Source: Alcanivorax sp. (GTDB taxonomy: Bacteria; Pseudomonadota; Gammaproteobacteria; Pseudomonadales; Alcanivoracaceae). Taken from it: 64,000 nt of DNA. Below are positions 2,523 to 18,511 of the stretch, piece after piece (the first letter of the stretch is position 1; every line of letters begins with the position of its first letter). The notes under the pieces were generated by a model. It was not told the DNA's origin and ran no database searches. It saw nothing but the letters and a program-made list of their open reading frames with translations. Both the position numbers and the translations under genes were made by a program. The stretch is from positions 62,001 through 126,000 of the forward strand of contig NZ_NVWY01000004.1 in NCBI RefSeq assembly GCF_002733835.1, given 5' to 3'.

Positions 2523-2824
2523 AGACTTAATGATATCCCGGATGGCGAAAGGCCAGCCCGGGGCATCTCTTCCTCTACCCCTGCCAGCTTGTTGTCGCCC
2601 TTGGCGATATCCGATGCAGTTAGTTTCATTCCACCCGTCAATTTTTTACCTTTTATGCACCAATAAACAGCACGTTTAGTGGTTGCCACCCCGGCAGTTC
2701 CGTATCCTGCGCGCCTTCCACGCGTCGCCAGACCGAATTTACCCCGCTCACAAGGCTGGGCAGAGGAAAGGGCGATGCCACTTTGAGCGCCCACCGTGAT
2801 CCGGTGGACCTTCAGGAGATCTTC
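2523..2824. other. Intergenic stretch without a recognised gene
   Basis: About 300 bases lie between the VWA gene and the porin. A leftward reading frame stays open through it and into both neighbours, but it has no clear ribosome binding site and most of it is antisense to real genes. I see no tRNA, terminator with a T-run, or known repeat. It probably holds the porin promoter, which I could not locate confidently. Confidence 0.4.
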
Positions 2825-4033
2825 ATGTCCAGGGTGAAAACCACCATCTGGATGACTGCTTTCAGCCTTGCCGCACTGACCAGCGCCGCCCATGGGGACA
2901 ACACCCAGGCTGAAATCCGTCGTCTGCAATCCGAGCTCGACCAGCTCAAATCCCGTCTCGGCGATGAGGCCGACTCGTCCTCATTGAATTGGCCGCCGCT
3001 CACCGTATTCGGCAGCGTCAGCGTTGACGCCATCTATGATGACAAGGATGCCGGCTTCGACGAACTACTGATTCCCAGCACGATTCCCGGTGGCGACACG
3101 GATCAGCAGAATTTCGTCATGAGTGCCAAGAACAGCCGCTTTGGCTTTCAGGTGGGAGAGGATAGCGGCCCGCACATGGTCTTTGCCATGGACCTGTTCG
3201 GCAGCCTGGACCGGTATGAGCTGCGTATCCGCGATTTTTATTTTGAAAACGGGCCGTTGCGTGCAGGTTACGGCTTCACCGCCTTGCTGGATGGCGCGGC
3301 CTGGCCGCTCACGCTGGATGCTCAGGGCCCCAATAGTGCCATCTTTGCGCGTCAAACCGGTGTGCGCTGGCAGGGAGAGCGCTTGACCCTGGCCCTGGAA
3401 GATCCGAACAGTGAAGTCTACGATCCCACCAACGCGACCAGCGCTGCGGGTCGCAGACCCGATGCCATCGCTACCTGGAAACAGGGCTTGCCCGCCGGGC
3501 ACATCAAGCTGGGTGTGGTGAACCGTGAAATCGGTGTGGAATTCGCGGATGGCGACCAGCAATTTGCCAACGCAACGGGTGGCGTGGCCAGTGCCGCCAT
3601 CAACGTTAGCGACAACGTCAAACTGCTTGCCAATGGCAGTTACGGTCAGGCCATGGCGCATTACTACAATGACCTGTCCGGCTTTGGCGACAGTGGCATG
3701 GACGGCTATGTCTACGCCGGCAGAGATCTGCAGCCTCTGCTGGCGCAAGGCGGCTATCTGGGTTCTCAGTGGCAGCTCAATCCCGCCTGGACCCTGGCCA
3801 TGGTCGCCGGGGAAGTCACTATCGAGTCCGACACTGCCTTGCCGGCCGAGGCGCTGCGGCGCACCCGCTACGGGACACTGACAGCGGTACATCAATACAC
3901 GCCAGCCTTGAGCTATGGTGCGGAGCTGTCATACGGCCTGCGTGACAACCAGGCGGGTGACCGCAATGAAGCACCACGGGTGCAGTTCAATATGACGTAC
4001 CGGTTTGCGCACACCAGCCGTCCGGTCGAATAA
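2825..4033 (+). CDS. DcaP-like trimeric outer-membrane porin
   Basis: The protein (402 residues) has a signal peptide (cleavage likely after AAHG, near residue 23), a short heptad-like coiled coil (AEIRRLQSELDQLKSRLG) and then a long alternating-strand region ending in aromatic FAHTSRPVE-type sequence. That layout fits DcaP-like porins, which form trimers in the outer membrane and take up dicarboxylates or other small solutes. The ATG at 2825 has AGGAG at 2814-2818; an in-frame TTG at 2783 lacks a good site and would hide the signal peptide. The solute is not predictable. Confidence 0.8.
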   Translation: MSRVKTTIWMTAFSLAALTSAAHGDNTQAEIRRLQSELDQLKSRLGDEADSSSLNWPPLTVFGSVSVDAIYDDKDAGFDELLIPSTIPGGDTDQQNFVMSAKNSRFGFQVGEDSGPHMVFAMDLFGSLDRYELRIRDFYFENGPLRAGYGFTALLDGAAWPLTLDAQGPNSAIFARQTGVRWQGERLTLALEDPNSEVYDPTNATSAAGRRPDAIATWKQGLPAGHIKLGVVNREIGVEFADGDQQFANATGGVASAAINVSDNVKLLANGSYGQAMAHYYNDLSGFGDSGMDGYVYAGRDLQPLLAQGGYLGSQWQLNPAWTLAMVAGEVTIESDTALPAEALRRTRYGTLTAVHQYTPALSYGAELSYGLRDNQAGDRNEAPRVQFNMTYRFAHTSRPVE

Positions 4034-4057
4034 GGCACAGCAGGACTCAGAGCTGGC

Positions 4058-5485
4058 TCAGCCCCCGTTGGTATCCATTACCGTGTCGGTGGGGTACTGA
4101 GCCACCTTGGTTTCTTCAGGGGTTCTTCCCACCAGATTTTTCTGCTTCCAGGTACCACGTTTAAACCATACCCAGGCAACCAGCGCCGACATAAAGGCTT
4201 GAACCGGATAGGAAATCCACACTCCGGCCACGCCCAGTTGCGTGCGCTCTGTGAGTAACCAGGCAATCGGGAACTGCAACACCCAAAGGGAAATCAAGGC
4301 AATGGCCATGGCGGCGAGCGTGTTGCCCGAGCCGCGAAAGGCTCCAGTGACCACAATCTGGGCGCCGAGCAGGCCGTAGGAGAGGGCGGTGATGCGAACA
4401 AAGCGGGCGCCTTCTTCGATAACTGCGACCTCGCCGGGCACGAACAGCTCAACCAGCGGCGCGGCAAGGAAGAAACTGACCACCCCAACCAGCGTCAAGC
4501 TCGTCAGTGCCAGTGCGCCGCTGAGGTACGTCGTGTGTTCCGCGCGCTCCAGCTGCCCGGCGCCCACGTTTTGCCCCACCACCGTGGAGGTGGCTTGTGA
4601 GAGACCCAGCGCTGGAATAATCACAAAACTCAGCATCCGCGACCCAATGCCGTAAGCGGCCAGCGCAACGGTGCCGAACCCGGCCACCAGGATGGTCATT
4701 AGCATCAGCCCCAGTGCCCGGGTTGCCTGTTCCACGGCGGCAGGCAGCCCCAGCCGGAACAACTGCCACAACATGGGCAAATCCGGGCGCATGTGCAAAC
4801 GGGCAAGCTGAATGCCATAGCGCCCCGAGAACAGCATAAACAAACCGATCACCGCGGCCAGGCCCTGGGTAGCCAGGGTTGCGGCTGCCGCGCCACTAAC
4901 GCCAAGGGCCGGCACCGGGCCATAACCAAGAATCAGTAACGGATCGAGCCCAAAATTAAGCAGCACCGTCCCCGCAACGATCAGCAGAGGTGTCTTTACA
5001 TCCCCGACGCCACGCATCAGCGACTGAAAAATCACATAGGCAAACATGAACGGCAGCCCGAGAAAAGACACCTGTAGATAGGACGTGGCGTGGGGCTGCA
5101 CGGATGCCGATGCACCGAGAAACGCCACCAGCGGTGCCGCAATAAAATAGCCAATGGCAGCGAGCAATAAGGAGAGGGCGATTACGCCCATCAATGCCTG
5201 GGCGGCCACATGATTGACCGCATCCAGATCACCGCGCCCCTTGTTCTGGGCAACCAGAATGGTTCCGGCAACGGCAAGGCCAATACCCAACGAGATAAGG
5301 AAAAACAAAACGGGGAAGCTGAGCGACACCGCAGCAACGGCATCCGCCCCCAGTCGGCCGACCCAGAACGTGTCGGTAAGCTGGTAGGCCGTCTGCAGAA
5401 GATTCGCGAAGACAATCGGAATCGCCAGGGTCAACAGCGCGCGGGTAATGGAGCCCTGGATCAGGCTAGGAGTGTCTTGGGCCAC
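4058..5485 (-). CDS. MATE-family multidrug exporter (NorM-like)
   Basis: This is a 475-residue integral membrane protein with about 12 hydrophobic segments in two homologous halves. It begins with the typical MATE entry sequence (ITRALLTLAIPIVFANLLQTAYQLTDTFW, read in part) followed by VGRLG. MATE proteins export cationic drugs or metabolites using H+ or Na+ gradients. The start is GTG at 5485 with GGAG about 8 bases upstream. The gene is the last host gene before the prophage, and an 18-bp palindrome lies 86 bases upstream. Substrate unknown. Confidence 0.9.
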   Translation of the reverse strand: MAQDTPSLIQGSITRALLTLAIPIVFANLLQTAYQLTDTFWVGRLGADAVAAVSLSFPVLFFLISLGIGLAVAGTILVAQNKGRGDLDAVNHVAAQALMGVIALSLLLAAIGYFIAAPLVAFLGASASVQPHATSYLQVSFLGLPFMFAYVIFQSLMRGVGDVKTPLLIVAGTVLLNFGLDPLLILGYGPVPALGVSGAAAATLATQGLAAVIGLFMLFSGRYGIQLARLHMRPDLPMLWQLFRLGLPAAVEQATRALGLMLMTILVAGFGTVALAAYGIGSRMLSFVIIPALGLSQATSTVVGQNVGAGQLERAEHTTYLSGALALTSLTLVGVVSFFLAAPLVELFVPGEVAVIEEGARFVRITALSYGLLGAQIVVTGAFRGSGNTLAAMAIALISLWVLQFPIAWLLTERTQLGVAGVWISYPVQAFMSALVAWVWFKRGTWKQKNLVGRTPEETKVAQYPTDTVMDTNGG

Positions 5486-5570
5486 AAGGTCTCCAGGCGT
5501 GTACTAGGAACGGGTTGCTGAAGGAAGTAATTTCCTCTGTCAGCAATCCTACCCGAAATGCTTACGACAG

Positions 5571-5588
5571 ACGCAACAACTGTTGCGT
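5571..5588. promoter_or_regulatory. 18-bp palindrome upstream of the MATE gene
   Basis: ACGCAACA-AC-TGTTGCGT is a perfect inverted repeat with 8-base arms and a 2-base spacer. It lies in the divergent region between the MATE exporter start (5485) and the dif site. Its size and symmetry suit a dimeric repressor operator. The regulator is unknown and no regulator gene adjoins it. Confidence 0.4.
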
Positions 5589-5644
5589 ACGAATCAGTGG
5601 CGAGGGTGGACCAATAAAGATGTAACCATAACGGTAATTACTCT

Positions 5645-5672
5645 ATTTAACATAATATACATTATGCGTAGT
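5645..5672 (+). other. attL: dif-like XerC/XerD site at left prophage end
   Basis: The site reads XerD arm ATTTAACATAA (5645-5655), centre TATACA (5656-5661), XerC arm TTATGCGTAGT (5662-5672). The XerD arm and centre are identical to E. coli dif written on this strand. The XerC arm differs from the usual TTATGCGCACC at its outer end. The same centre and nearly the same XerC arm recur at 17235-17251. By the logic of XerC-first exchange, the left arm is host and the right arm is phage. Confidence 0.88.
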
Positions 5673-5758: not shown

Positions 5759-6502
5759 TCAGACTGTTTTGTTATCCAAAGGGATCGGATTATGAATAAA
5801 CGATTTAACCAGGTGCCCATTACTTGCCCGCGTACCGGCCACCAGCGCGCCATTTCGCCCGCGCATGCGGCCCGATTTACCGGCAGAAGCCTGAGGACTG
5901 CCCAGCGTTGGGCCAACGGTTCCCGCATCGACGCCGCCGCGTCTCAGGTGCTGGCCTTCCGGGTGTTCGGTGTGCTGCCCGGTGATGCCTGGCACGACTT
6001 CCGGTTGATCGGTGACCGGCTGCACAATGTCCACACGGGGGAAACCTGGCAGCCGTGGGAGCTGCGGGCCGGTTGGGTGATGTTCCAGGAGCTGCGAGAG
6101 CGCCGCCGCCGGGATATCGGCCAGCCCGCTATCTTGCAGGCTGTGCGCGGCTAGTCCTCGCAGGTGTCGCGCCCGAATACTTCCGGCCAGATGTGGCGCT
6201 CCAGTCGGCGCACTCGTTGCCGCGTCTGCCGGTTGTCCTTCTTTATCGAGAGAAGCACCCCCAGTATTGCGACGTTGGCCGTCGCTCCGCCCCCCAGAAT
6301 GATTTCCATCAATGACATTTTCCAGCGCCTCCCCTTCCTTGTTTTTTTCGTCGGCGTAGTCCTGCACGGCTTCGCCCCCGGCTTTCGCCAGGATGCCCAC
6401 GGCGACCGGTGACAGGCCCGCAGCGGTTAAGCCGACGCCCAATAGTGCGGTGATCAGGGTTTTACCCCAGTGGTGTTTGAATACGCCCCACAGCTTGCCC
6501 AT
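5759..6502 (-). CDS. Phage membrane protein with N-terminal hydrophobic helix; 3' extent uncertain
   Basis: The first 65-70 residues look real: a basic start (MGKLWGVFKHHWGK), a hydrophobic helix (about 15-40) and an acidic tail, with the ATG four bases past the stop of the gene before it. The frame then stays open for about 175 more residues that overlap the 55-residue gene at 6151-6318 and lie antisense to the regulator at 5792-6154. That extension has the low-complexity look of antisense translation. Either the protein truly ends late, or a small indel has removed an earlier stop. A holin or virion-membrane role is possible but not shown. Confidence 0.5.
   Translation of the reverse strand: MGKLWGVFKHHWGKTLITALLGVGLTAAGLSPVAVGILAKAGGEAVQDYADEKNKEGEALENVIDGNHSGGRSDGQRRNTGGASLDKEGQPADAATSAPTGAPHLAGSIRARHLRGLAAHSLQDSGLADIPAAALSQLLEHHPTGPQLPRLPGFPRVDIVQPVTDQPEVVPGITGQHTEHPEGQHLRRGGVDAGTVGPTLGSPQASAGKSGRMRGRNGALVAGTRASNGHLVKSFIHNPIPLDNKTV
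5792..6154 (+). CDS. Small phage DNA-binding regulator (DUF3653-like)
   Basis: The 120-residue protein has a helix-turn-helix-like stretch (about residues 20-48, AISPAHAARFTGRSLRTAQRW), then W-H-D-F-R-L-I-G-D-R-L, a pattern I associate with DUF3653 proteins of small phages. It is one of only two rightward prophage genes and stands alone beside attL. In the circular phage it would follow the repressor (16898-17185) in the same direction, across attP. A Cro-like or antirepressor role is inferred. The ATG at 5792 follows GGGATCGGA. Its TAG stop shares CTAG with the convergent gene ending at 6151. Confidence 0.7.
   Translation: MNKRFNQVPITCPRTGHQRAISPAHAARFTGRSLRTAQRWANGSRIDAAASQVLAFRVFGVLPGDAWHDFRLIGDRLHNVHTGETWQPWELRAGWVMFQELRERRRRDIGQPAILQAVRG
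6151..6318 (-). CDS. 55-residue phage membrane protein
   Basis: ATG at 6318 with GGGGAGG upstream (spacing about 9) opens a 55-residue frame: a hydrophobic N-terminal helix (MEIILGGGATANVAILGVLL) followed by a very basic tail (KKDNRQTRQRVRRLERH). It ends at TAG at 6151-6153, sharing CTAG with the stop of the opposing regulator gene. It is the last gene of the leftward structural operon. The one-helix, basic-tail layout suits a small holin-like or virion-membrane protein. The precise role is unknown. Confidence 0.6.
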   Translation of the reverse strand: MSLMEIILGGGATANVAILGVLLSIKKDNRQTRQRVRRLERHIWPEVFGRDTCED

Positions 6503-6506
6503 GCTT

Positions 6507-6779
6507 TTATCCCCCGGTTACGGTGTCGGTGTTGTTGGTGAGGCCCAGTTCTTCGGCCTCGTTTGGGTGGGTGATATCGTAAATCCACGATCCCAGCGAC
6601 CAGCCTTCCTGGCCGCTCACTGATTCGCCCACGGCGTTCACGCCTTCATAGAACACGTTTTCATTGTTCAGCGGGTTAACGGCTTCGCCCAGGGCTGGCA
6701 GTTTGCGCCAGACCAGGAACACGCCCACCGCTGCAACCGCGCCGACCGCTAATAGCTGCTTGTCGGTGAATACGGCCAT
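6507..6779 (-). CDS. 90-residue phage membrane protein
   Basis: The frame opens with MAVFTDKQLLAVGAVAAVGVFLVW, one membrane-spanning helix near the N-terminus, followed by a soluble acidic part with several Asn and Gly. The ATG at 6779 overlaps the TAA of the muralytic gene as TAATG, which favours it over a GTG nine bases earlier. Membrane-containing phages of the PM2 type carry several such proteins in the inner vesicle. No family is recognised. Confidence 0.65.
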   Translation of the reverse strand: MAVFTDKQLLAVGAVAAVGVFLVWRKLPALGEAVNPLNNENVFYEGVNAVGESVSGQEGWSLGSWIYDITHPNEAEELGLTNNTDTVTGG

Positions 6780-7369
6780 TACGCCCACCCGGCCCGTGCA
6801 ATGCCGTCATCAATGGTGGCGGCGCTATAGGGCTGCTGCCCGTTTTCGTGCTGGATGATGGACGACACCAGGGCACGCATTTGGCCGGCATCGAAGGCCA
6901 GCGGCTGGTTTGGGCCGACGCCTACGGCTGCGGCCACGGCGTTCACATAGGCCCCGGTGTTGTTTTCTACTGGCGGTGCCCAGCGGTTAATGATGCCCTC
7001 TACGGTGTGCAGGCCGTAGCGGTCGCGGTAGTTGCGGATGATCTTTGCCAGGGCGCGAATGCCATACACGGGATCAGCGAAGGAAAAGAACGCGCTATCA
7101 GGCTGGATATCGGCCAGGCCCTGCCATGCGTCGCCACTCTTGCGAATGTTGCCGGGGTTGTTGTTGCGGATGCCTCGCGGCAACGACTTGTCGTAAAACT
7201 GGTTCGGCGCTTCCATGCTGCCCCCGGTTAAGAACGGAATATCAATTTTTAGGCCGGACAGGTCGAACCCATCCAGCAAGCCGCCTGGCTTGTTCGCGGT
7301 GGCGCTGGCTGGCCTGCTGGCCAACCACACGCCAGCGGCCAGCCCGCCCAGGGCTAGCAGGCGAATCAT
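6779..7369 (-). CDS. Virion-associated peptidoglycan-degrading protein (lytic transglycosylase-like)
   Basis: The 196-residue protein starts with a hydrophobic anchor (about residues 3-24), then a linker, then the stretch RGIRNNNPGNIRKS at about 66-80. That stretch marks a family of phage muralytic proteins often labelled structural protein P5 or virion protein. A second conserved block is FADPVYGIRALAKI, followed by YGLHTVEGIINRWAP. Such proteins locally open the cell wall during DNA entry, or help lysis. Stop and start are fused to both neighbours by TAATG. No separate endolysin gene was seen, so this may also serve lysis. Confidence 0.8.
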   Translation of the reverse strand: MIRLLALGGLAAGVWLASRPASATANKPGGLLDGFDLSGLKIDIPFLTGGSMEAPNQFYDKSLPRGIRNNNPGNIRKSGDAWQGLADIQPDSAFFSFADPVYGIRALAKIIRNYRDRYGLHTVEGIINRWAPPVENNTGAYVNAVAAAVGVGPNQPLAFDAGQMRALVSSIIQHENGQQPYSAATIDDGIARAGWA

Positions 7370-7782
7370 TAGCAGTTGGAAATAACTAGCGGATGCTCAA
7401 CCTGCAACCAGCTTTTCAGGCTGGCTTCCGTTGCCGCTTCCAGAGTGTCCACCACTACATGCACAGCCAGCGCCGCCGAACCGGGTACAGCGGAAATATC
7501 CACTTCCAACAGCTCACCCACGCGCCCGGACACTGCCGGGAACTGCCGTTCTGCCACGACTGTCGCGCCCGCCTTCAATTGCACCGTTACGTCAGCCGTT
7601 CCGGCTGCTGTGGTGTCCAGGTCTACGGCCCACTTTGCGCGGATATAGCTCAGGCGGGACAGGTCGCCCAGGCTCGGGCGAAGGTGTACCGGCGTAGAAT
7701 ATGCCTCCTCAGCAACAGCAAGACTAATGCCGCCCGCCGCGCCTGGCTCGAATTCCATTTGTGTAGTGTTTACGAACTCCAT
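7369..7782 (-). CDS. Predicted beta-rich phage structural protein
   Basis: The 137-residue product has no membrane helix and is rich in alternating hydrophobic/polar residues with Thr, Val and Ala, as expected for a small jelly-roll or beta-sandwich fold. It starts at 7782 and ends at 7369, each within a TAATG overlap, between the spike candidate and the muralytic protein. A penton base, minor capsid or spike-associated role is inferred from position only. Confidence 0.6.
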   Translation of the reverse strand: MEFVNTTQMEFEPGAAGGISLAVAEEAYSTPVHLRPSLGDLSRLSYIRAKWAVDLDTTAAGTADVTVQLKAGATVVAERQFPAVSGRVGELLEVDISAVPGSAALAVHVVVDTLEAATEASLKSWLQVEHPLVISNC

Positions 7783-9230
7783 TAGATGATTCCCTCTCGG
7801 AGTGTGATTTTGATTTTTTGCGGAAACTCACAGCTAAAACTGTCTTCTATGTTCGCGGCCTTGAATGACTGACCCCCAGATGAAACCGTTCGCGGCGCAT
7901 ATCCTGATTCGTTCTCAAAAACCACTTGATACACAAAATCCAGATAATCCGGGCGCACAAATCGGCCCAGGTAAATCTCCAGCACGGCGCGAATTACTTC
8001 ACCCTCCACCAGCACTTGGCCGGTTGGCAGCACATCGACACCGATAACGGCATTGGTGCCCCAGTCCTTATTGTTGCTTTTGAACAGACCAGCCCCGGAG
8101 CAATTCGACACCTTGCCGAAAAGCCTTATATCACGGTCAATTGCCGAGAATTCGCGCAACACAATGGGCACGCCATTTTGCACAAACCGGGGCACCACCA
8201 TGGTTTCCGTTCCTGGTATATACACTGCCCCGGAGTTTTGACGCCAGGCAGGGTATCCATCATAGATACTGTCATAGGTCGGAATGGTCGCCAGCGCAGT
8301 GTCTACCGATTCCAGCCCGCCCACTTTAGAAAGGAAAACGACCTGCCCTTGTGTATCCACAACATGCACATATCCACCATGCAAGACGATGGAGCGCGGA
8401 AACGTTGCCAGTGTCACGCTCGACATTACCGCGCCGGTTCTGGCGTTAATCGCAAATATCGTTTGCTTTTGCGCCTGATAAATCACATCCCCATCACAGG
8501 CGGCGCATAGCAACAAAGGCGTATTGGGGTTCTGAACAAAAGGCGCTTCCGTTGTCAGGCTGCCAAGCGCTCTGTGCGTCACGAGAGAATAAATCCGATA
8601 AACAATCACCCGATCAGCCCCGCCCGAGAAATCAGGCAGGAACAGCCGACTACCAATAATAAAGCCCTGTCCACGCCCATAAATTTCGGGCCTATCCGTC
8701 ACAACCGGGTTATCTGGCCATCCTGTTACTTCAGAATATAGCGATCCGCTGCTGTTTGAATCTGGACACAACAACAGCCGATCCGGCGCGATCAGTGTTA
8801 TCACTTGTGATGTTGTCTTACCCGCTACGGAAAACTCCTTCATTAACTCCCACTGATCAAACTGCCGTTGATCCGTTCCCGTGATATTCACCCTTAACGG
8901 CAGATCTGCCCTGCTGTCATCAATCCACTGCCCGTCAGCCTTTCTGATTCCTGACTGCACCGTGACTTCACCACGAATGATCTGGCTGTTGTAATCACCC
9001 TCACCCACTTTTAGCACTACGGCCACGGGGTTGGTGTCGTCGGGGTTGATTACGGTCACGGACTTGAACGGGCGCGCAGGGCGCACCTTGTCGCCGGGGT
9101 TAACGGTGATGACCTGGTCGTGAATCATCAATTTGATTTCACGGTCTACATAATCGACGTAGACAAAATCACCACCGGCTTGCACTTGCTGTTCACCGTT
9201 GGGCAGTAGAGTTGTGCGAATCTCGCGCAT
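7782..9230 (-). CDS. Large predicted spike / receptor-binding protein
   Basis: At 482 residues this is the largest structural gene. The N-terminal 100-130 residues (MREIRTTLLPNGEQQVQAGG onward) resemble a short base domain found in small-phage capsid-attachment proteins. The rest has repeated short strands with GGYVHVVD, NARTGAVM and DGDVIYQAQ motifs suggesting a beta-propeller-like (PQQ/WD-type) fold. PM2 carries a spike protein (P1) at the vertices; this is the positional counterpart, though I cannot show homology. A propeller receptor-binding head would be unusual. Host-range determinant is the likely role. Confidence 0.6.
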   Translation of the reverse strand: MREIRTTLLPNGEQQVQAGGDFVYVDYVDREIKLMIHDQVITVNPGDKVRPARPFKSVTVINPDDTNPVAVVLKVGEGDYNSQIIRGEVTVQSGIRKADGQWIDDSRADLPLRVNITGTDQRQFDQWELMKEFSVAGKTTSQVITLIAPDRLLLCPDSNSSGSLYSEVTGWPDNPVVTDRPEIYGRGQGFIIGSRLFLPDFSGGADRVIVYRIYSLVTHRALGSLTTEAPFVQNPNTPLLLCAACDGDVIYQAQKQTIFAINARTGAVMSSVTLATFPRSIVLHGGYVHVVDTQGQVVFLSKVGGLESVDTALATIPTYDSIYDGYPAWRQNSGAVYIPGTETMVVPRFVQNGVPIVLREFSAIDRDIRLFGKVSNCSGAGLFKSNNKDWGTNAVIGVDVLPTGQVLVEGEVIRAVLEIYLGRFVRPDYLDFVYQVVFENESGYAPRTVSSGGQSFKAANIEDSFSCEFPQKIKITLREGII

Positions 9231-10586: not shown

Positions 10587-11435
10587 TTATGCTTTCAGCG
10601 TGCCCAGCCATTCGGTGATTACCGGCATATTGCTTGCGGCATCAGTCATGCCCAGGCGAATGCGGAAGTCCGCCACACCAATGGTGTTGATTTTGGAACC
10701 GGCATAACCGTCTTCACACTTGTCAATCAGTGTCCAGCCGCTTTGCTGGTTGCGCATGCCGTTGGACAGATTAATGGTGTTCACGGCGCGGGTTCGCTCG
10801 AAAATCTTCACGTTTTCGCGGTAGATTTCCAGCTGATTCATGTCTTCGGACTTGAAGAACACGCGACGCAACCAGGCGCGGTTAGGCTTGCCGTGGCTCA
10901 GGTCCTGCACATCGAATTCACCGGCACCCTGCACGGGGCGGTTGGTTTTGACGATATGGCGAACCAGACCAGCGCCACCCGGCAGGGCATTGGACACGGT
11001 GGCCCAAATTTCCAGCGACGGGGTGGCAGTCGGTGATTCTGCAATATCAATTTGCAGCTCTGCGCTGGTGATTTCGTTGGGCTGCATTTCTGCAATGCCA
11101 GCCGGACGACCGACATTCAGGGCGGTTTCTTCCTCGCCCTCACGCACTCGCATGCCCAGGGAATCGAACGGGATAAACAGGAAACCGGATGCAGCCGCCA
11201 GGCCATCGGTTTGGTTCATCATGTCCTGTTCCGCAAAGGAAACCCGGCGGATGGTTTCCGTGTTGGCCATTACCCGCAGCTCGGGATAGTCGGCCAGGGT
11301 GCCGGAATACTTCACCACCAGACCGTGGTAGCGCAGACCGGGATTAAACCGGAAATAGGCAGTACCACCGGCGGAAATACCGGAATTGCTGAGGAGTTTA
11401 ACCTCGTTGCGCTCAATAGCCAAAATGCCATTCAT
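10587..11435 (-). CDS. Major capsid protein, P2-like double jelly roll
   Basis: The 282-residue product is close in length to PM2 P2 (269). The order of blocks agrees with what I remember of P2: S-A-G-G-T-A-Y at about 20-26, V-V-K-Y-S-G-T-L (P2: L-R-Y-S-G-V), E-L-Q-I-D-I-A-E-S (P2: E-I-K-F-D-I-D-E-A), and W-L-R-R-V-F-F-K (P2: M-R-R-N-F-F-K). P2 trimers of two jelly rolls form the icosahedral shell over an internal membrane. The ATG at 11435 with AAGGGA upstream is preferred to an earlier in-frame TTG. It lies amid small membrane-protein genes, as expected. Confidence 0.85.
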   Translation of the reverse strand: MNGILAIERNEVKLLSNSGISAGGTAYFRFNPGLRYHGLVVKYSGTLADYPELRVMANTETIRRVSFAEQDMMNQTDGLAAASGFLFIPFDSLGMRVREGEEETALNVGRPAGIAEMQPNEITSAELQIDIAESPTATPSLEIWATVSNALPGGAGLVRHIVKTNRPVQGAGEFDVQDLSHGKPNRAWLRRVFFKSEDMNQLEIYRENVKIFERTRAVNTINLSNGMRNQQSGWTLIDKCEDGYAGSKINTIGVADFRIRLGMTDAASNMPVITEWLGTLKA

Positions 11436-11448
11436 TGCAAGTCGTCCC

Positions 11449-11604
11449 TTACTTTGCAGCACCGGCTACCGCTTTTAGCGCGCCAATGCCTGATTTTTTG
11501 AACGCCACGAACACCAGGCCCACGGCCAGCGCCGTTACAATCCCTGAAACAACGATTTCCGGGTTCGTGTTGCGCTTGATGTAGCGTAGCGGCTGTTCAC
11601 TCAT
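11449..11604 (-). CDS. 51-residue phage membrane protein
   Basis: This frame was found by reading: a basic start (MSEQPLRYIKRNTNPE), a membrane helix (IVVSGIVTALAVGLVFVAF) and a basic tail (KKSGIGALKAVAGAAK). It ends 13 bases before the capsid ATG. No strong ribosome site is visible, so coupling to the gene upstream is likely. Probably a vesicle protein of the virion. Confidence 0.62.
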   Translation of the reverse strand: MSEQPLRYIKRNTNPEIVVSGIVTALAVGLVFVAFKKSGIGALKAVAGAAK

Positions 11605-11904: not shown

Positions 11905-12546
11905 TTACTCACCCATGTACTTAAACTGGATATATTCAGGCTCCCTTCCGGTTTCCCGGTGCCAGAACCTCAACTCCTTGGGCGGTGTCTTCATAAGAAT
12001 TTCCGGTTTTACGTCAACCAGTTTTGACGCCGACTTTGCATCATCCAAGCCTTCCATTACCCCCACGTATTTATGCGCGCTGTTGTTGCGTACCGTGGTC
12101 GGCAGCTCTGCCGCCCGCTGCCCGATGGTGTAAATTATCGCGCCGTACTTCCGCCCCCTGAGCATGAGATTCCCCAGGCTTTCCAGCGCGGGGCCGCTGC
12201 TGGCCGTGAATTGCGCCGCTTCCTCAAGGATTACGTGCGTTTCCTTGTTGCCGTCCAGCACTTCCCAGGCCATAGCGCAGAACGCCTCGAACTGTTCCGG
12301 CTTCTTAGCGCCCGTGTAGGATATCCGGTAGTTTTTCCCGCTTTTATCTGCCGCTTTCAGGGCCTTTGCGAACTTGCCCAAGCTGTCGTAGGCGATACAC
12401 CCGTGATCGTTGTCCGGGTCGAACGCCACCAGCCGGACACCGCGCCGGGGTATCAGGTTTTTCAGTGACTGGCTTTTACCGCCCCCCGTGGATGCGATGA
12501 TGACGCAATGGCGGGCGTCATGTTTCCCGTTCCGGTTAATCGCCAC
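11905..12546 (-). CDS. Genome-packaging ATPase (FtsK/HerA type, PM2 P9-like)
   Basis: The 213-residue protein has Walker A S-T-G-G-G-K-S at residues 19-25, Walker B V-I-L-E-E-A-A-Q-F near 104, and a downstream N-N-S-A-H-K-Y-V-G segment with the polar residues typical of this superfamily. Such ATPases pump DNA into preformed membrane-lined procapsids. It starts at GTG 12546, overlapping the previous gene by 11 bases. It resembles Zot proteins only in the shared ATPase core; no filamentous-phage partners are present. Confidence 0.82.
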   Translation of the reverse strand: MAINRNGKHDARHCVIIASTGGGKSQSLKNLIPRRGVRLVAFDPDNDHGCIAYDSLGKFAKALKAADKSGKNYRISYTGAKKPEQFEAFCAMAWEVLDGNKETHVILEEAAQFTASSGPALESLGNLMLRGRKYGAIIYTIGQRAAELPTTVRNNSAHKYVGVMEGLDDAKSASKLVDVKPEILMKTPPKELRFWHRETGREPEYIQFKYMGE

Positions 12547-13817: not shown

Positions 13818-15662
13818 TTATTGACACAAGTCCAAGGCGGCTGCGCCGCTAAAAGGACAAGACCACCGCGCCGCGATGCCCTGCCCTTGTCCGGACAGCC
13901 TCCCGGCCAACTCCTTCAACCAGGACGGGACGCCTTTCACCCCCGCCAGGTCATCATCTGACCGACTCAACACCGGCACCTCACGCTGTTTCGGCTTCCG
14001 GTGTTCAATCTCCCACCGATAGAAGCGAGTCAAACAGGGGCGCTCCCGCGCCTGATCCGTGCCCCCGGTTCGCTCCCAAATCCACAGCCCAAATACCTGG
14101 CCTCTCGCCGGGTCGCCGTAGCAGGTAGTACCCGGCAGCAATTCGCCGGTTTCCGGGTCCAAGTCCTCGCACTCTGTCCAATAGGCAGGACGGGCCGGGC
14201 GTGCGTCACGGGGCAGCGTGGGGCCGCCCATGTATTCAACGAATGACGCCCAGTCCCCTTTATCCGCCGCCTGGCCTGCAGCTTCCACGGTTTGGTTACC
14301 GAACAGATCAGCCTGCAATCCCGGCTCACTCTGCGCCCACAGCCGACGCAGCTCCCGCCACACGGTCACGGACGGGCCGCCGATCTGCTGGAACTGGTGA
14401 ATCTTCCATGAATTGGCCCACGACCTAACCCGCTCCGCACCCTGCGCCATATCCAGGCCGCTATCGTCGTCCTGCTCGTTCAGGTTCGCGCCGTCAGTGT
14501 TTTTGGCGATGTACTTGGCAACGTAGCCCGCTGCGGTGCCCTTGGCCGGGTCAATCGCTTTGGCATCGAATCGATACTTTTTCGCGCCTGGCTCGTTCGG
14601 GTCATCTTTCAGCAGGTAGCGGCTGCATATGCGCCGTGCGTCGTCACGATCCGCAGGATGCATGAACACAAGCAGATGCCAATGGGGGCACCCGTCATGG
14701 TGCGGCTCTGCCACCCGGAAACCGTAGATACGTATGCCATTACGGGCCATGCAGGCACGAATCTGTGACCACAGCTTGCAAAGCCACTCCTGCGCCTGTT
14801 TCGGGTCCGCCCCTTTCCAACGGGAGTTTTTCACCGGCTTATTGGCCCGCTGAATCCACCGCATACGGTGCCAGCGACTGGCCAGGGTGAACGTCCAGAA
14901 CTCGCCCACATGCCCACGGCCTTCGGCCACTTCCTCAAATCCCCGCATTCTCACCATCAGCTCGTGACGGCGGTTGGTCAGGTTGGACGGCCCCAGCTCG
15001 GCCAACTGGGCAAGCGTGTATTCCTGGCCCTCCTCATTGGTCGCCACCACCTGCTCCAGCGTCTCCAGGTTGCGAACCTGCGCCGCCCGATACCGGTTAA
15101 GATTCCAGTCATCAATGTACGCCTGCCGATACTTCGCCACCTGCCCACGCACCCGCGCCAGCCGCCCCACTTCACGGGCCTGCAAGGTGCGAATCTGGCG
15201 ACGCCACCACAACTTGCACACCAGCCGACGAGACCAGGCAATCAGCTCACACTCTTCCACCTCATCAGGCACCGGCCAGGCCAGGCCGTACCGGGTCGCC
15301 ACCAAGCAGCACTCATTCAAGCCGCTAACCATCCCGCCGTTCTGCATCAAACGGGCACACTCTTTCACCCGGCGATCACAGAACGCCCGGATGTCGGCAT
15401 CATCCGCCGCCAGGTATAAATCCTCACGGATCAAGGGCGAAAACTCGTGCATCTGCCGATTGGCTTTCACATAGCCGTGTCGCTCTGCCGCTTTCAGGTA
15501 GCCCCGGCCCACATCGCCCCAGGCAGGGCCAGCAAAGTCAGCGGCCCATGGTAGGTTTTGCTCCGCAGTGCCAAACTCATCATTCGGGATTGTGTCGCCA
15601 AAGTGCCCAGCCAGAACGGCCAGGCGGGCAAGGTGTGGCGGTGTGGTGGCAGTGCTGATCAT
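13818..15662 (-). CDS. HUH rolling-circle replication initiator (phage GPA / PM2 P12-like)
   Basis: The 614-residue protein carries F-W-T-F-T-L-A-S (motif 1), P-H-W-H-L-L-V-F (HUH motif, near 325) and Y-V-A-K-Y-I-A-K-N (two-tyrosine motif, near 380), the signature of superfamily I Rep proteins such as P2 gpA, phiX174 A and PM2 P12. It nicks the double-strand origin and stays bound by tyrosine. The ATG at 15662 overlaps the TGA of the previous gene (ATGA), which favours it over a TTG three codons upstream. Length matches PM2 P12 (about 634). The nick site was not identified. Confidence 0.9.
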   Translation of the reverse strand: MISTATTPPHLARLAVLAGHFGDTIPNDEFGTAEQNLPWAADFAGPAWGDVGRGYLKAAERHGYVKANRQMHEFSPLIREDLYLAADDADIRAFCDRRVKECARLMQNGGMVSGLNECCLVATRYGLAWPVPDEVEECELIAWSRRLVCKLWWRRQIRTLQAREVGRLARVRGQVAKYRQAYIDDWNLNRYRAAQVRNLETLEQVVATNEEGQEYTLAQLAELGPSNLTNRRHELMVRMRGFEEVAEGRGHVGEFWTFTLASRWHRMRWIQRANKPVKNSRWKGADPKQAQEWLCKLWSQIRACMARNGIRIYGFRVAEPHHDGCPHWHLLVFMHPADRDDARRICSRYLLKDDPNEPGAKKYRFDAKAIDPAKGTAAGYVAKYIAKNTDGANLNEQDDDSGLDMAQGAERVRSWANSWKIHQFQQIGGPSVTVWRELRRLWAQSEPGLQADLFGNQTVEAAGQAADKGDWASFVEYMGGPTLPRDARPARPAYWTECEDLDPETGELLPGTTCYGDPARGQVFGLWIWERTGGTDQARERPCLTRFYRWEIEHRKPKQREVPVLSRSDDDLAGVKGVPSWLKELAGRLSGQGQGIAARWSCPFSGAAALDLCQ

Positions 15663-15826
15663 TTGCCGCAACTCTCTTTCTGCTCTGCTCTATTGCTCCA
15701 CTCAGCAGATTTACTCAAAAGAGACGCCACAAGGGCCGAGTCCTCACCCTCGAAAAACTTTATAACCCTTGCCAAATGCCGCGCCCTTGCGGCCTGCTCC
15801 CTGTACCACTCTGCCGTCAATCGCAT
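15659..15826 (-). CDS. 55-residue phage protein upstream of rep
   Basis: A helical, charged small protein (MRLTAEWYREQAARARHLAR...) ending CGK. It starts in a TGATG overlap and ends in an ATGA overlap with rep, so it is translationally locked into the early operon. Soluble; function unknown. Confidence 0.6.
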   Translation of the reverse strand: MRLTAEWYREQAARARHLARVIKFFEGEDSALVASLLSKSAEWSNRAEQKESCGK

Positions 15827-16136: not shown

Positions 16137-16477
16137 GCCGCCTGCCCCTTCCGGGCAGGTGCCGGGGCTTGCGGTAGGGTCTGGCGGTCAATGTCCGCCA
16201 CCAGGGTCAGGTGTTCGCGCTGCTGTTCGGCTCTGCAGGTGTGCAAAATGCCCTGCAGGCGCTCGGCGGTGCCCGCCCATGCGCGTATGCACTCCATCAG
16301 CTTTGCGCGTTCGCGGCGGCTCATGTTGTGCATGGTGAGGCGGTCGGGATCGAGGCCCAGGCCGCGCAGAATGAAAAGCTGTTGCGCTGCTGATAGCTCG
16401 GCCCAAACGGCTGATTCAGGATCCGCTGGCCGGCTTCTTTCCAGCCAGGCGGCGCAGGTTTCGCGAAGGGTTTTCAT
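16133..16477 (-). CDS. 114-residue early phage protein
   Basis: A soluble, mostly helical and charged product (MKTLRETCAAWLERSR...). The segment R-R-E-R-A-K-L-M-E-C-I-R-A-W could bind DNA or protein. ATGA overlaps join it to both neighbours. It belongs to the early leftward operon; no family recognised. Confidence 0.6.
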   Translation of the reverse strand: MKTLRETCAAWLERSRPADPESAVWAELSAAQQLFILRGLGLDPDRLTMHNMSRRERAKLMECIRAWAGTAERLQGILHTCRAEQQREHLTLVADIDRQTLPQAPAPARKGQAA

Positions 16478-16671
16478 GCCTGCACCCCCTTGGCGGCGCA
16501 GAACGTCATAGCGTCCAACCTATCGGCGTCCAGCTTGTCGGCCAGCTTGTCGTATTTGCTGGCCACGTCCTGAATCTTTGCCACTGATCCGGCCACCGCC
16601 TCAGGCAGCAACAGGCGCAGGCTCTCAGCCGTCGCTCTCAACTCTTCCGGTGTTATCTGAATGATTTCCAT
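16474..16671 (-). CDS. 65-residue early phage protein, first of leftward operon
   Basis: MEIIQITPEELRATAESLRL starts a short amphipathic helical protein. ATG at 16671 lies 82 bases after the candidate early promoter -10 (16753-16758). A longer frame from 16806 would run through the promoter and operator repeats and is less likely. Function unknown. Confidence 0.55.
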   Translation of the reverse strand: MEIIQITPEELRATAESLRLLLPEAVAGSVAKIQDVASKYDKLADKLDADRLDAMTFCAAKGVQA

Positions 16672-16752
16672 AGGTGCCAACCTCGTGGTGTTGTTCTTCG
16701 GTGTGCCGCCGGGATCGGGGCCATGGTGGCCCGTCTCCCGGTTGGCCAGAAC

Positions 16753-16897: not shown

Positions 16898-17185
16898 ATG
16901 GAAAATCTCAACACGATTTCTCTTGCTGATCGCGTTAAGTCATTGATTGGCAAGGATTCCCACTATGCACTTGCAAAAGCTCTAGGCGTCACCCGCGAGG
17001 GTGCCCGCTGCTGGTATACCCGCCAAACTGTGATGGATGATGAGGTAGGCATCCGGGCCGCAAAACTGCTCAATATTGACCCGGAATCGGTCATTTTGTG
17101 GCTTCAAGTGGAGCGGGCAGAGAAGAAAGGAAACGTCACTTTGTCGCAGCACTGGCGACACATAGCAGAGCAAATAGTCGCATAG
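16898..17185 (+). CDS. Phage repressor-like HTH protein (DUF3693/XRE-like)
   Basis: The 95-residue protein has a helix-turn-helix region (about 22-60: YALAKALGVTREGARCWYTR, then VGIRAAKLLNIDPESV) like small Cro/C1-type regulators found in filamentous and PM2-like phages. It is transcribed away from the early operon over a repeat-rich region, the classic place for a repressor. ATG at 16898 follows AAAAGGTG. In the circular genome the DUF3653-like regulator would come next, across attP. Confidence 0.75.
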   Translation: MENLNTISLADRVKSLIGKDSHYALAKALGVTREGARCWYTRQTVMDDEVGIRAAKLLNIDPESVILWLQVERAEKKGNVTLSQHWRHIAEQIVA

Positions 17186-17199
17186 AATCAGACAGTTAC

Positions 17200-17227
17200 A
17201 ACTACCCGGCCTCGATGCCGGGTAGTT
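17200..17227 (+). repeat. Perfect hairpin fused to attR
   Basis: AACTACCCGGC (17200-17210), loop CTCGAT, GCCGGGTAGTT (17217-17227): an 11-bp perfect stem 14 bases after the repressor stop. No T-run follows, so it is a weak terminator at best. Its right arm overlaps the XerD arm of the attachment site by four bases. It belongs to the phage half of the site. Confidence 0.65.
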
Positions 17228-17251
17228 AACTTGTTATACATTATGCGCAGT
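17224..17251 (+). other. attR: dif-like XerC/XerD site at right prophage end
   Basis: XerD arm AGTTAACTTGT (17224-17234), centre TATACA (17235-17240), XerC arm TTATGCGCAGT (17241-17251). The left arm is a poor XerD site while the right arm is close to consensus, the reverse of attL. That is what exchange next to the XerC arm predicts: phage half on the left, host half on the right. Confidence 0.85.
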
Positions 17252-17440: not shown

Positions 17441-18511
17441 ATGCTCGCGCTGCGTTTCTGCCTGCTTGTCTCTTTTTGCCTGCCACTGATAACGCAGGCC
17501 AATCCGGTACCGGTTTCCGTCGCCACGGTGAAAATGCAGAAACCGGTTCGTGAACTGCTGATCAATGGCACCCTGGCAGCCGATCAGTCCGCCCGGCTCT
17601 CTGCCTCAGTGGCTGGCCTGGTGAGCAAATTGAACGTAGATATCGGCTCCCGGGTTGAGTCTGGCGACGTGCTGCTGACGCTGGACGCCGAGATTAACCG
17701 GCTAACCTTGCAACAGGCAAAAGCCAGCCATAAACAGCAGGCAACCACGCTGGCGGATTTACAGCGGCAACTGGATGAAGCCAGTAGCCTGATTGCTCGC
17801 CGCAGTATCGCCGCCAGCGAAGTCCGCAGTCTGGAATCCCAGGTGGAGGCCAGCAAGGCGGCTCTGGCGGCCAGTCAGGCCGAGGTAGGCCGCCAGCAAG
17901 CGTTGCTTCAGCGCCACACTCTGAAAGCTCCGTTTCCGGGGGTTATCAGCGCCAAGCTGACCGAGGTGGGCGAATGGGTGGTGCCCGGTACGCCAGTGCT
18001 TGAGTTGGTGGGTACAGGTTCACTGCATGCGGATTTCGCGGTGCCTCAGCGCTATTACTCCCAGATCGATACAGGCACCCCGCTTACGATTCGCCAGGAA
18101 AATGCCGGCGCCCAAACCCAGGCCACCGGCGAACGGACCATGGCCGCGAAGATAACGGCTATTGTGCCGGTGAATGACCCGGCCGCCCGAACATTCACCC
18201 TGCGTGCGAGCCTGGATGCCAAAGATCTGACCCCGGGCATGGCCGTGTTCGGCAATCTGGCCATTCAGGCCCCGAATGCGGAGCCGGTGGTGCCCCGCGA
18301 TGCCCTGCTCCGCGATGTTCAGGGTAATGTGTCGGTGTGGGTTGTGGTCACGGATGACGATAAGGCAGTCGCCCAGCGGCGCGCCATCAAGGTGCGATCG
18401 GGGCAATCCGATCCGGTAATCGTTCTGGAAGGCCTCAGCAAGGGCGATCAGGTGGTAATCCGTGGAAACGAAGGGTTGCGAGACGGTGATCGTGTTCAGG
18501 TGACCCGCTGA
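17441..18511 (+). CDS. RND efflux periplasmic adaptor (membrane fusion protein)
   Basis: The 356-residue protein has a signal peptide (about 1-20, ending TQAN), a biotinyl-lipoyl-like half motif (L-S-A-S-V-A-G-L-V-S-K-L-N-V-D-I-G-S-R-V), a coiled-coil hairpin (about 90-150) and a second lipoyl half (LKAPFPGVISAKLTEVGEWV). It links the inner-membrane pump at 18511 to an outer-membrane channel not encoded here. Stop and next start overlap as TGATG. The likely ATG is 12 bases after CGGAG. Confidence 0.9.
   Translation: MLALRFCLLVSFCLPLITQANPVPVSVATVKMQKPVRELLINGTLAADQSARLSASVAGLVSKLNVDIGSRVESGDVLLTLDAEINRLTLQQAKASHKQQATTLADLQRQLDEASSLIARRSIAASEVRSLESQVEASKAALAASQAEVGRQQALLQRHTLKAPFPGVISAKLTEVGEWVVPGTPVLELVGTGSLHADFAVPQRYYSQIDTGTPLTIRQENAGAQTQATGERTMAAKITAIVPVNDPAARTFTLRASLDAKDLTPGMAVFGNLAIQAPNAEPVVPRDALLRDVQGNVSVWVVVTDDDKAVAQRRAIKVRSGQSDPVIVLEGLSKGDQVVIRGNEGLRDGDRVQVTR

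Follow-up and report, generated by a model that had tools for sequence, protein, structure and literature searches.

The attP sites of TLCphi and difGGI are described as consisting of a XerC site and a centre that are like dif and a XerD site that is divergent (PMC5357621, PMC4246890). According to the same sources difGGI resists excision because the recombination complex fails to stop FtsK and is dissociated, and TLCphi is listed as reversible. Use of Xer and dif has also been proposed for tailless phages, namely NO16 (PMC9966536) and Jorvik (PMC10589892); for the tailless prophages found at dif in Vibrio, the question whether the host Xer or an enzyme of their own is responsible was called inconclusive in 2024 (PMC11630473). 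For PM2, described as strictly lytic (PMC1950889), a dif-like site has been remarked upon in print (PMC9966536), which agrees with the site that we located at 747-774, and integrases were reported in three corticoviral elements (PMC1950889). Half-sites are not described in the accessible text of the NO16 paper (PMC9966536), and neither half-sites in tailless phages nor a linked gene are described in the literature that was searched (most subscription papers lay outside this search).

The window, by which we mean the whole 64,000-nucleotide stretch of the Alcanivorax sp. contig NZ_NVWY01000004.1, contains two dif-like sites in direct repeat, 11,579 bp apart from start to start and 83% identical over 29 nt, which enclose 11,551 bp, i.e. 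an element of ~11.5 kb. The left site, attL, reads ATTTAACATAA TATACA TTATGCGTAGT and the right site, attR, reads AGTTAACTTGT TATACA TTATGCGCAGT, with letters and coordinates as the first-pass annotation had given them. The motif TTATGCGYAGT occurs twice in the window (0.04 copies expected), and within the draft genome (3.6 Mb, 93.5% complete) attL and attR are the only sites with at most three mismatches to TTAACATAATATACATTATGCG. The features of the element and its flanks are:

4058-5485, - strand: host flank, MATE-family transporter (Pfam MatE, 6e-64; 98.5% amino acid identity in DG881/G013)
5645-5672, + strand: attL, a complete dif (XerD arm 5645-5655, central region 5656-5661, XerC arm 5662-5672)
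5792-6154, + strand: DUF3653-like HTH protein of 120 aa, att-adjacent (phrog_1668, 4e-4)
6779-7369, - strand: lysozyme/transglycosylase-like protein (phrog_873, 7e-61)
7782-9230, - strand: large late ORF, putative spike/receptor protein (by position alone, as PM2 P1)
10587-11462, - strand: major capsid protein P2, double jelly-roll (Pfam P2_C, 1e-23; P2_N, 2e-18)
11905-12546, - strand: packaging ATPase, homologue of PM2 P9 (phrog_2666, 7e-26)
13818-15671, - strand: HUH replication initiator, P12/GPA-like (Phage_GPA, 1.6e-73; phrog_91, 1.8e-149)
16898-17185, + strand: HTH regulator immediately inside attR (phrog_4441, 9e-13)
17224-17251, + strand: attR (degenerate XerD arm 17224-17234, central region 17235-17240, XerC arm 17241-17251)
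17441-18511, + strand: host flank, RND efflux periplasmic adaptor, MFP (TIGR01730, 8e-63)

Judged by its predicted proteins, the element is a tailless PM2-like (corticoviral) prophage, with a P2 capsid, a P9-like ATPase and an HUH Rep. The genes by which Corticoviridae/PM2-like phages (order Vinavirales) are recognised, for the P2 double jelly-roll and the P9 ATPase, are both present (assignment above family rank), and the gene layout, with an HTH protein near either end, resembles that of PM2. The ATPase is 29% identical to PM2 P9 (196 positions, E 2e-23) and the capsid protein 43% identical to that of Vibrio phage 1.249.A (Autolykiviridae), which together with D526 (unclassified) provides the best two matches among phage records. 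Several ORFs are without any family match, including that at 7782-9230, for which Pfam and PHROG gave none. A filamentous-phage (inovirus) reading was ruled out by the P2 capsid and the GPA Rep. The lysis protein encoded at 6779-7369 matches part of the endolysin family phrog_873 as well as tape-measure and head families of tailed phages, which suggests that lysis genes may be exchanged between phages. Single-protein searches of IMG/VR with the window capsid, the window ATPase or the capsid of L091 (we label genomes G and loci or contigs L) returned no relatives; the Rep query returned 191, and a P2-like capsid accompanied it in 10 of the best 80.

The two sites differ in four of the 11 XerD-arm bases (the XerD arm of attR retains 7/11) and in one of the 11 XerC-arm bases, and they share all six central bases. 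Their arrangement implies that attL would be composed of the host XerD arm and a phage-derived XerC arm, and attR of a phage-derived XerD arm and the host XerC arm; this topology, and with it Xer-type integration at dif, had been put forward in the first-pass annotation and is supported. That annotation also placed the exchange beside the XerC arm, for which we find no support: the tract common to attL and attR is 13 bp long and spans both cleavage points, so the crossover cannot be placed next to XerC, and with identical centres a complete exchange is at least an equally good fit. Its proposal that attP had been put together from two poor halves holds for the XerD arm. It fails for the XerC arm, which is good rather than weak (core matches 7/7 at both sites in 10/10 comparable pairs, see below). 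Calling TTATGCGTAGT off-consensus was likewise mistaken: this exact arm is found in six of 16 relatives of the genus (G010, G011, G013, G003, G006 and G015), vs two of 16 for TTATGCGCAGT, and the variable position of the XerC arm is T in 10, G in four and C in two of them. With TTATGCGTAGT present in six relatives, a T or a C at this position is normal variation and no measure of how good the arm is.

The host is Alcanivorax-like, with Alcanivorax sp. DG881 (G013) as the nearest relative found, and its xerC and xerD both score above the NCBIfam cut-offs. Joining the good halves gives a predicted host dif, ATTTAACATAATATACATTATGCGCAGT, and this reconstruction stands in so far as the same 28-mer is the actual dif of two relatives of the genus (G014 and G016), which also have the MFP/RND genes of the right flank. 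It is present in G030 of the same family too, where it serves a prophage as intact site. A base-exact empty site was not found among the 16 genus relatives: positions 5486-5672, used as query, matched nothing in any of the 16 beyond dif itself and up to 12 bases on its left, and the DNA that flanks dif is almost unconserved across the genus. The dif of DG881 contains TTATGCGTAGT and has unrelated DNA on both sides, so it does not represent an empty site. As the DNA beside dif is almost unconserved and the flanks in DG881 differ, the predicted host dif is consistent with the relatives but not proven at base level. Two further observations concern these flanks. In DG881 the dif (region L116, ~9545) lies between ~2 kb and ~5 kb that are absent from the window, and no second dif-like site was found in that region. 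The MFP gene, which adjoins dif in G014, G016 and G008 as well, is just 70.8% identical to its counterpart in DG881, and the neighbouring RND gene and the MATE gene on the opposite side reach 98.5%, which marks a divergent patch beside dif.

We collected further P2-bearing regions by searching with P2_N in 390 genomes of the order (22 with a match), 369 genomes of the class (4, own genome included), 18 genomes of one genus (3, all found before) and 144 genomes of one family (14, two found before). The 43 regions examined, window included, comprised: ten complete pairs of sites with a wrecked XerD arm (class C) and two partial class C cases on short contigs (L110, L111); two complete pairs in which the XerC arm is the ruined one (class D; L097 and L140) and four partial ones (L141, L168, and L160 and L161, which adjoin each other in a tandem locus); 17 regions with an integrase; and eight with neither a dif site nor an integrase, four of them on contigs <10 kb and the other, long ones being L096, L166, L167 and L172. 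The partial cases were classed by the side of the intact dif on which the capsid gene lies (L110, L111, L168) or by a poor XerC arm (L141, L160, L161). The tandem locus, in G882, holds two PM2-like prophages whose sites (L160, 7750 and 19111; L161) are XerD-good/XerC-poor and ~11.4 kb apart.

The ten class C pairs come from ten host genera in six families, and in seven of the nine loci other than the window the capsid is 18-38% identical to that of the window (the remaining two were unaligned). Their anatomy is uniform nonetheless. The intact site matches 10-11 of the 11 XerD bases and the other site 3-7 (mean of random 11-mers 2.58), the XerC core is 7/7 at both sites, and the degraded site is always found on the same side of the element. 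The central regions are identical within each of the ten pairs (TATACA in six, TATATA in two, TATAGA and TCTATA in one each; permutation p 4e-4), although strongly different centres could have been missed because a second site had to resemble the usual centre plus XerC core, with two mismatches at most. When loci were shuffled for the ten pairs, 1 of 2000 contained an exact copy of central region plus XerC core. The capsid gene runs antiparallel to the XerD-to-XerC direction in 10/10 class C pairs and parallel to it in both complete class D pairs; a manual tally that adds partial, contig and PM2 cases gives 15/15 and 7/7, respectively. Contig L214 is also of the opposite type (poor XerC arm), its site being cut by the contig end.

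Neither a tyrosine (PF00589) nor a serine recombinase (PF00239) match was found in the window element, and none lies between the sites of any of the 12 complete dif pairs. In comparison, 17 of the 21 long non-dif loci carry an integrase (Fisher 5e-6), or 15 of 21 (Fisher 5e-5) without two doubtful ones: L142, where the match is weak (E 6e-8), and L165, where the integrase may lie outside the prophage. The host draft genome (G000) has ten tyrosine-recombinase matches, all off the contig of the window, and zero serine-recombinase matches. The element, which has a dif-like site of its own and is inserted exactly at the chromosomal dif, thus agrees with the IMEXs (integrative mobile elements exploiting Xer) also in having no recombinase of its own as far as the two profiles reach; unrecognised families fall outside them, and since several ORFs of the window are without a family match the element may hold a recombinase of such a family. 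Just outside the att sites, 0.6-2 kb away, tyrosine-recombinase genes occur in two of the 12 complete pairs (G107 and G873, both class C): in G107 the distances are 568 bp from the intact dif and 1250 bp from the other site, and in G873, both measured from the intact dif, 665 and 1936 bp. An integrase HMM that was built from ten loci of the Pfam search misses these weak recombinases, which Pfam finds. Their approximate positions are:

L098, ~2694-3212 and 16350-16685: tyrosine-recombinase genes by the G107 prophage
L164, ~2669-3136 and 3832-4407: tyrosine-recombinase genes by the G873 prophage

Uncut sites were looked for in free phages. Among nine circular relatives scanned for a half-dif, two contain an uncut class C attP, GTTTAACCACT TATATA TTATGCGCAGT in L250 and ACCTTACATTC TATATA TTATGCGAACT in L259, and no exact half-dif was found in the other seven. 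Phage fNo16 has a class C attP as well, GTTTACCACAT TATACA TAATGCGCACC at 3280-3307. When four whole phage records were checked, PM2 (AF155037) alone proved to have a dif-like site, at 747-774, which with its perfect XerD arm and poor XerC arm is class D-like; two autolykiviruses and D526 had none. Since L250, L259 and fNo16 have the degraded arm in an uncut site, it may already belong to the phage in its free state, and decay after insertion is not needed to explain it.

Taken together, we consider it very probable that the corticoviral prophage, in which no integrase was found, uses host XerC and XerD to recombine a single half-dif attP with the chromosomal dif. In the proposed course of events attP would be a half-dif, with a full XerC arm, a central region that matches the host and a degraded XerD arm, which host XerC and XerD would recombine with dif. 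After the exchange, the host XerD arm, the centre and the phage XerC arm would make up a complete dif at attL, so that chromosome dimer resolution should continue, and attR, left with the degraded XerD arm, should take part only poorly in excision driven by FtsK/XerD. We infer from the sequences that it would be Xer that carries out the exchange, with dif function retained and attR resistant to excision. The stable lysogeny that had been deduced in the first-pass annotation is plausible by analogy and arguable at most, as the same layout is excision-resistant for difGGI and reversible for TLCphi.

Within this mechanism both strand pairs would most likely be exchanged, as in TLCphi and difGGI, since the complete central identity favours that over an exchange by XerC only. 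In the latter mode, that of VGJphi and CTXphi, to which the version of the first-pass annotation corresponds, XerC would cut beside its own arm, replication would resolve the Holliday junction and XerD would only aid synapsis; a XerC-first course is feasible as far as the sequences go, because all 10/10 pairs combine a broken XerD arm with conservation of the XerC arm and the bases next to it. It needs homology just beside the XerC arm, however, and all six central bases match in the ten pairs, in four variants; outside these ten, an IMG/VR contig pair (L195, 2803 and 13894) is the only one seen with a one-base mismatch (TATACA/TATAAA). The VGJphi attP, which is of the XerC-only type, is four bases off dif on the XerD side (PMC5357621), whereas attL and attR both have TATACA beside the XerD arm; the window site is of the TLCphi/difGGI type, with XerC arm and whole centre dif-like and the XerD arm divergent. 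Exchange by XerC only is therefore unlikely in our view.

The other two explanations that were weighed have far less in their favour. If attR had once been a full dif whose XerD arm decayed after integration, the 7/11 bases still retained in the window would be understandable, but the degraded arm is found uncut in the circular L250 and L259 and in phage fNo16 and the degraded site lies on a constant side of the element throughout the ten pairs, which makes decay hardly credible. A phage-encoded recombinase for which dif is a mere target, the reading left open for the tailless prophages of Vibrio, draws on the integrase genes that those prophages regularly carry at dif (PMC11630473) and on the recombinase genes that neighbour the elements of G107 and G873; against it stands the lack of a PF00589/PF00239 match in the window element and inside any of the 12 complete pairs, and we hold it to be very unlikely.

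The gene next to attL (5792-6154) is a shared trait of the complete dif pairs. Its 120-aa product has no Pfam match below 0.06; the Pfam cut-off for DUF3653 is reached by two of its relatives, those of L162 and L097, and narrowly missed by gp a of PM2. With E < 1e-5, the family was found in 12/12 complete dif pairs (the window's own gene counted) vs 0/17 integrase loci (Fisher 2e-8), in 2/2 partial class C, 3/4 partial class D and 0/8 other regions; the recall is circular, because the restricted HMM was trained on the positive loci, and the zero among integrase loci is not. The restricted HMM and this threshold were used for the counts because a second-round HMM also took in generic HTH regulators near attR. 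One integrase locus (L169) gave a weak hit (2e-4). In all 12 complete pairs the gene is found where the phage adjoins the intact dif, at a gap of -11 to 321 bp.

The AlphaFold model of the protein (mean pLDDT 89.6) consists of an HTH, a hairpin and a long helix, and a structure search with it gave nothing informative beyond the HTH, either in the PDB (best E 1.1) or in a viral library, where an uncharacterised caudoviral protein came first at E 9.7e-4. XafT of TLCphi has been mentioned as a XerD activator, and DUF3653 is presumably linked to it. By this analogy the DUF3653-like protein suggests itself as a candidate Xer accessory factor, XafT-like. There is almost an even chance that its only function is to regulate transcription in the lysogeny switch, with no part in recombination, as could be read from the HTH fold of the model, the weak HTH matches of the structure search and the annotation as putative regulator of the weakly similar ORF136 of VGJphi (E 0.5), which itself lies beside the annotated attP; the tie to dif-type integration (12/12 vs 0/17) and the constant place of the gene close to the intact dif argue against such a restricted role.

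On a capsid tree of 57 rows (a quick tree with 17/53 inner branches open, on which L102, L142 and L165 are of the integrase type but unlabelled), a minimum of 12 changes is required to account for the labels C, D and integrase with unlabelled rows left out, and shuffling shows no clear clustering of class C (12 changes vs a shuffled mean of 13.4). Two class C loci have integrase loci as neighbours (L098 with L100; L092 with L090). The closely related phages L250 and L260 have different att regions: their main block is ~97% identical, and the att-carrying region (L250, 8026-9533) differs, L260 being without a half-dif. It is conceivable, at somewhat under even probability, that PM2-like phages carry a swappable Xer-hijack cassette of a half-dif attP and an adjacent DUF3653-like HTH protein that would activate or direct host Xer on this half-site, a cassette that would have been traded against integrase modules in repeated switches; attP would come as a XerC-half or a XerD-half, and either form would keep a constant orientation relative to the capsid genes. 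If so, the same lineages would alternate between parasitising chromosome dimer resolution and using an integrase of their own.

The dif-located PM2-like prophages for which both sites were found have no recognisable integrase in between, have one of two attP designs and have one linked gene. Because no integrase is recognisable there and attP design and linked gene are shared, the choice between host Xer and a phage enzyme is now directly testable. The arrangement suggests how a virus may enter a site that a circular chromosome needs and yet leave dif repaired, by the same logic as in filamentous and island IMEXs and on an unrelated virion type.

Among the known systems, fNo16/NO16-like phages (PMC9966536; MH730557) share with the window element that they are tailless, temperate dsDNA phages listed under Corticoviridae with a dif-like site and a proposed role of XerCD. 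The attP of fNo16 likewise has a good XerC arm and a degraded XerD arm; a DUF3653-like gene lies 250 bp from it, and the late genes annotated nearby run antiparallel as in the window. The phage differs in its Vibrio host and is absent from the phage records listed as matches of the window capsid (20 of 24). PM2 (AF155037) has similar gene content and order, with P2, P9 (29%), the P12 Rep and gp a near the dif-like site, but that site is of the opposite type (XerD arm perfect, XerC arm poor) and the phage is described as strictly lytic. Jorvik, a Vinavirales phage, is said to have no predicted integrase and attP/attB similar to dif, and is unlike the window in its host, Rhodobacter capsulatus, and in its insertion within the RuBisCO cbbII operon (PMC10589892). 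VGJphi has in common with it the use of a XerC half, dsDNA integration and an annotated attP beside ORF136, but is an inovirus with a centre mismatched on the XerD side. TLCphi and difGGI, as described, have the same dif-like XerC site and centre and divergent XerD site (PMC5357621, PMC4246890), and difGGI leaves an intact dif at one end and a degenerate site at the other; unlike the icosahedral membrane phage of the window, they are a filamentous satellite phage and a 57 kb island. The best reading of the window element is that it comes closest to a TLCphi/difGGI-type, Xer-exploiting element on a corticoviral chassis.
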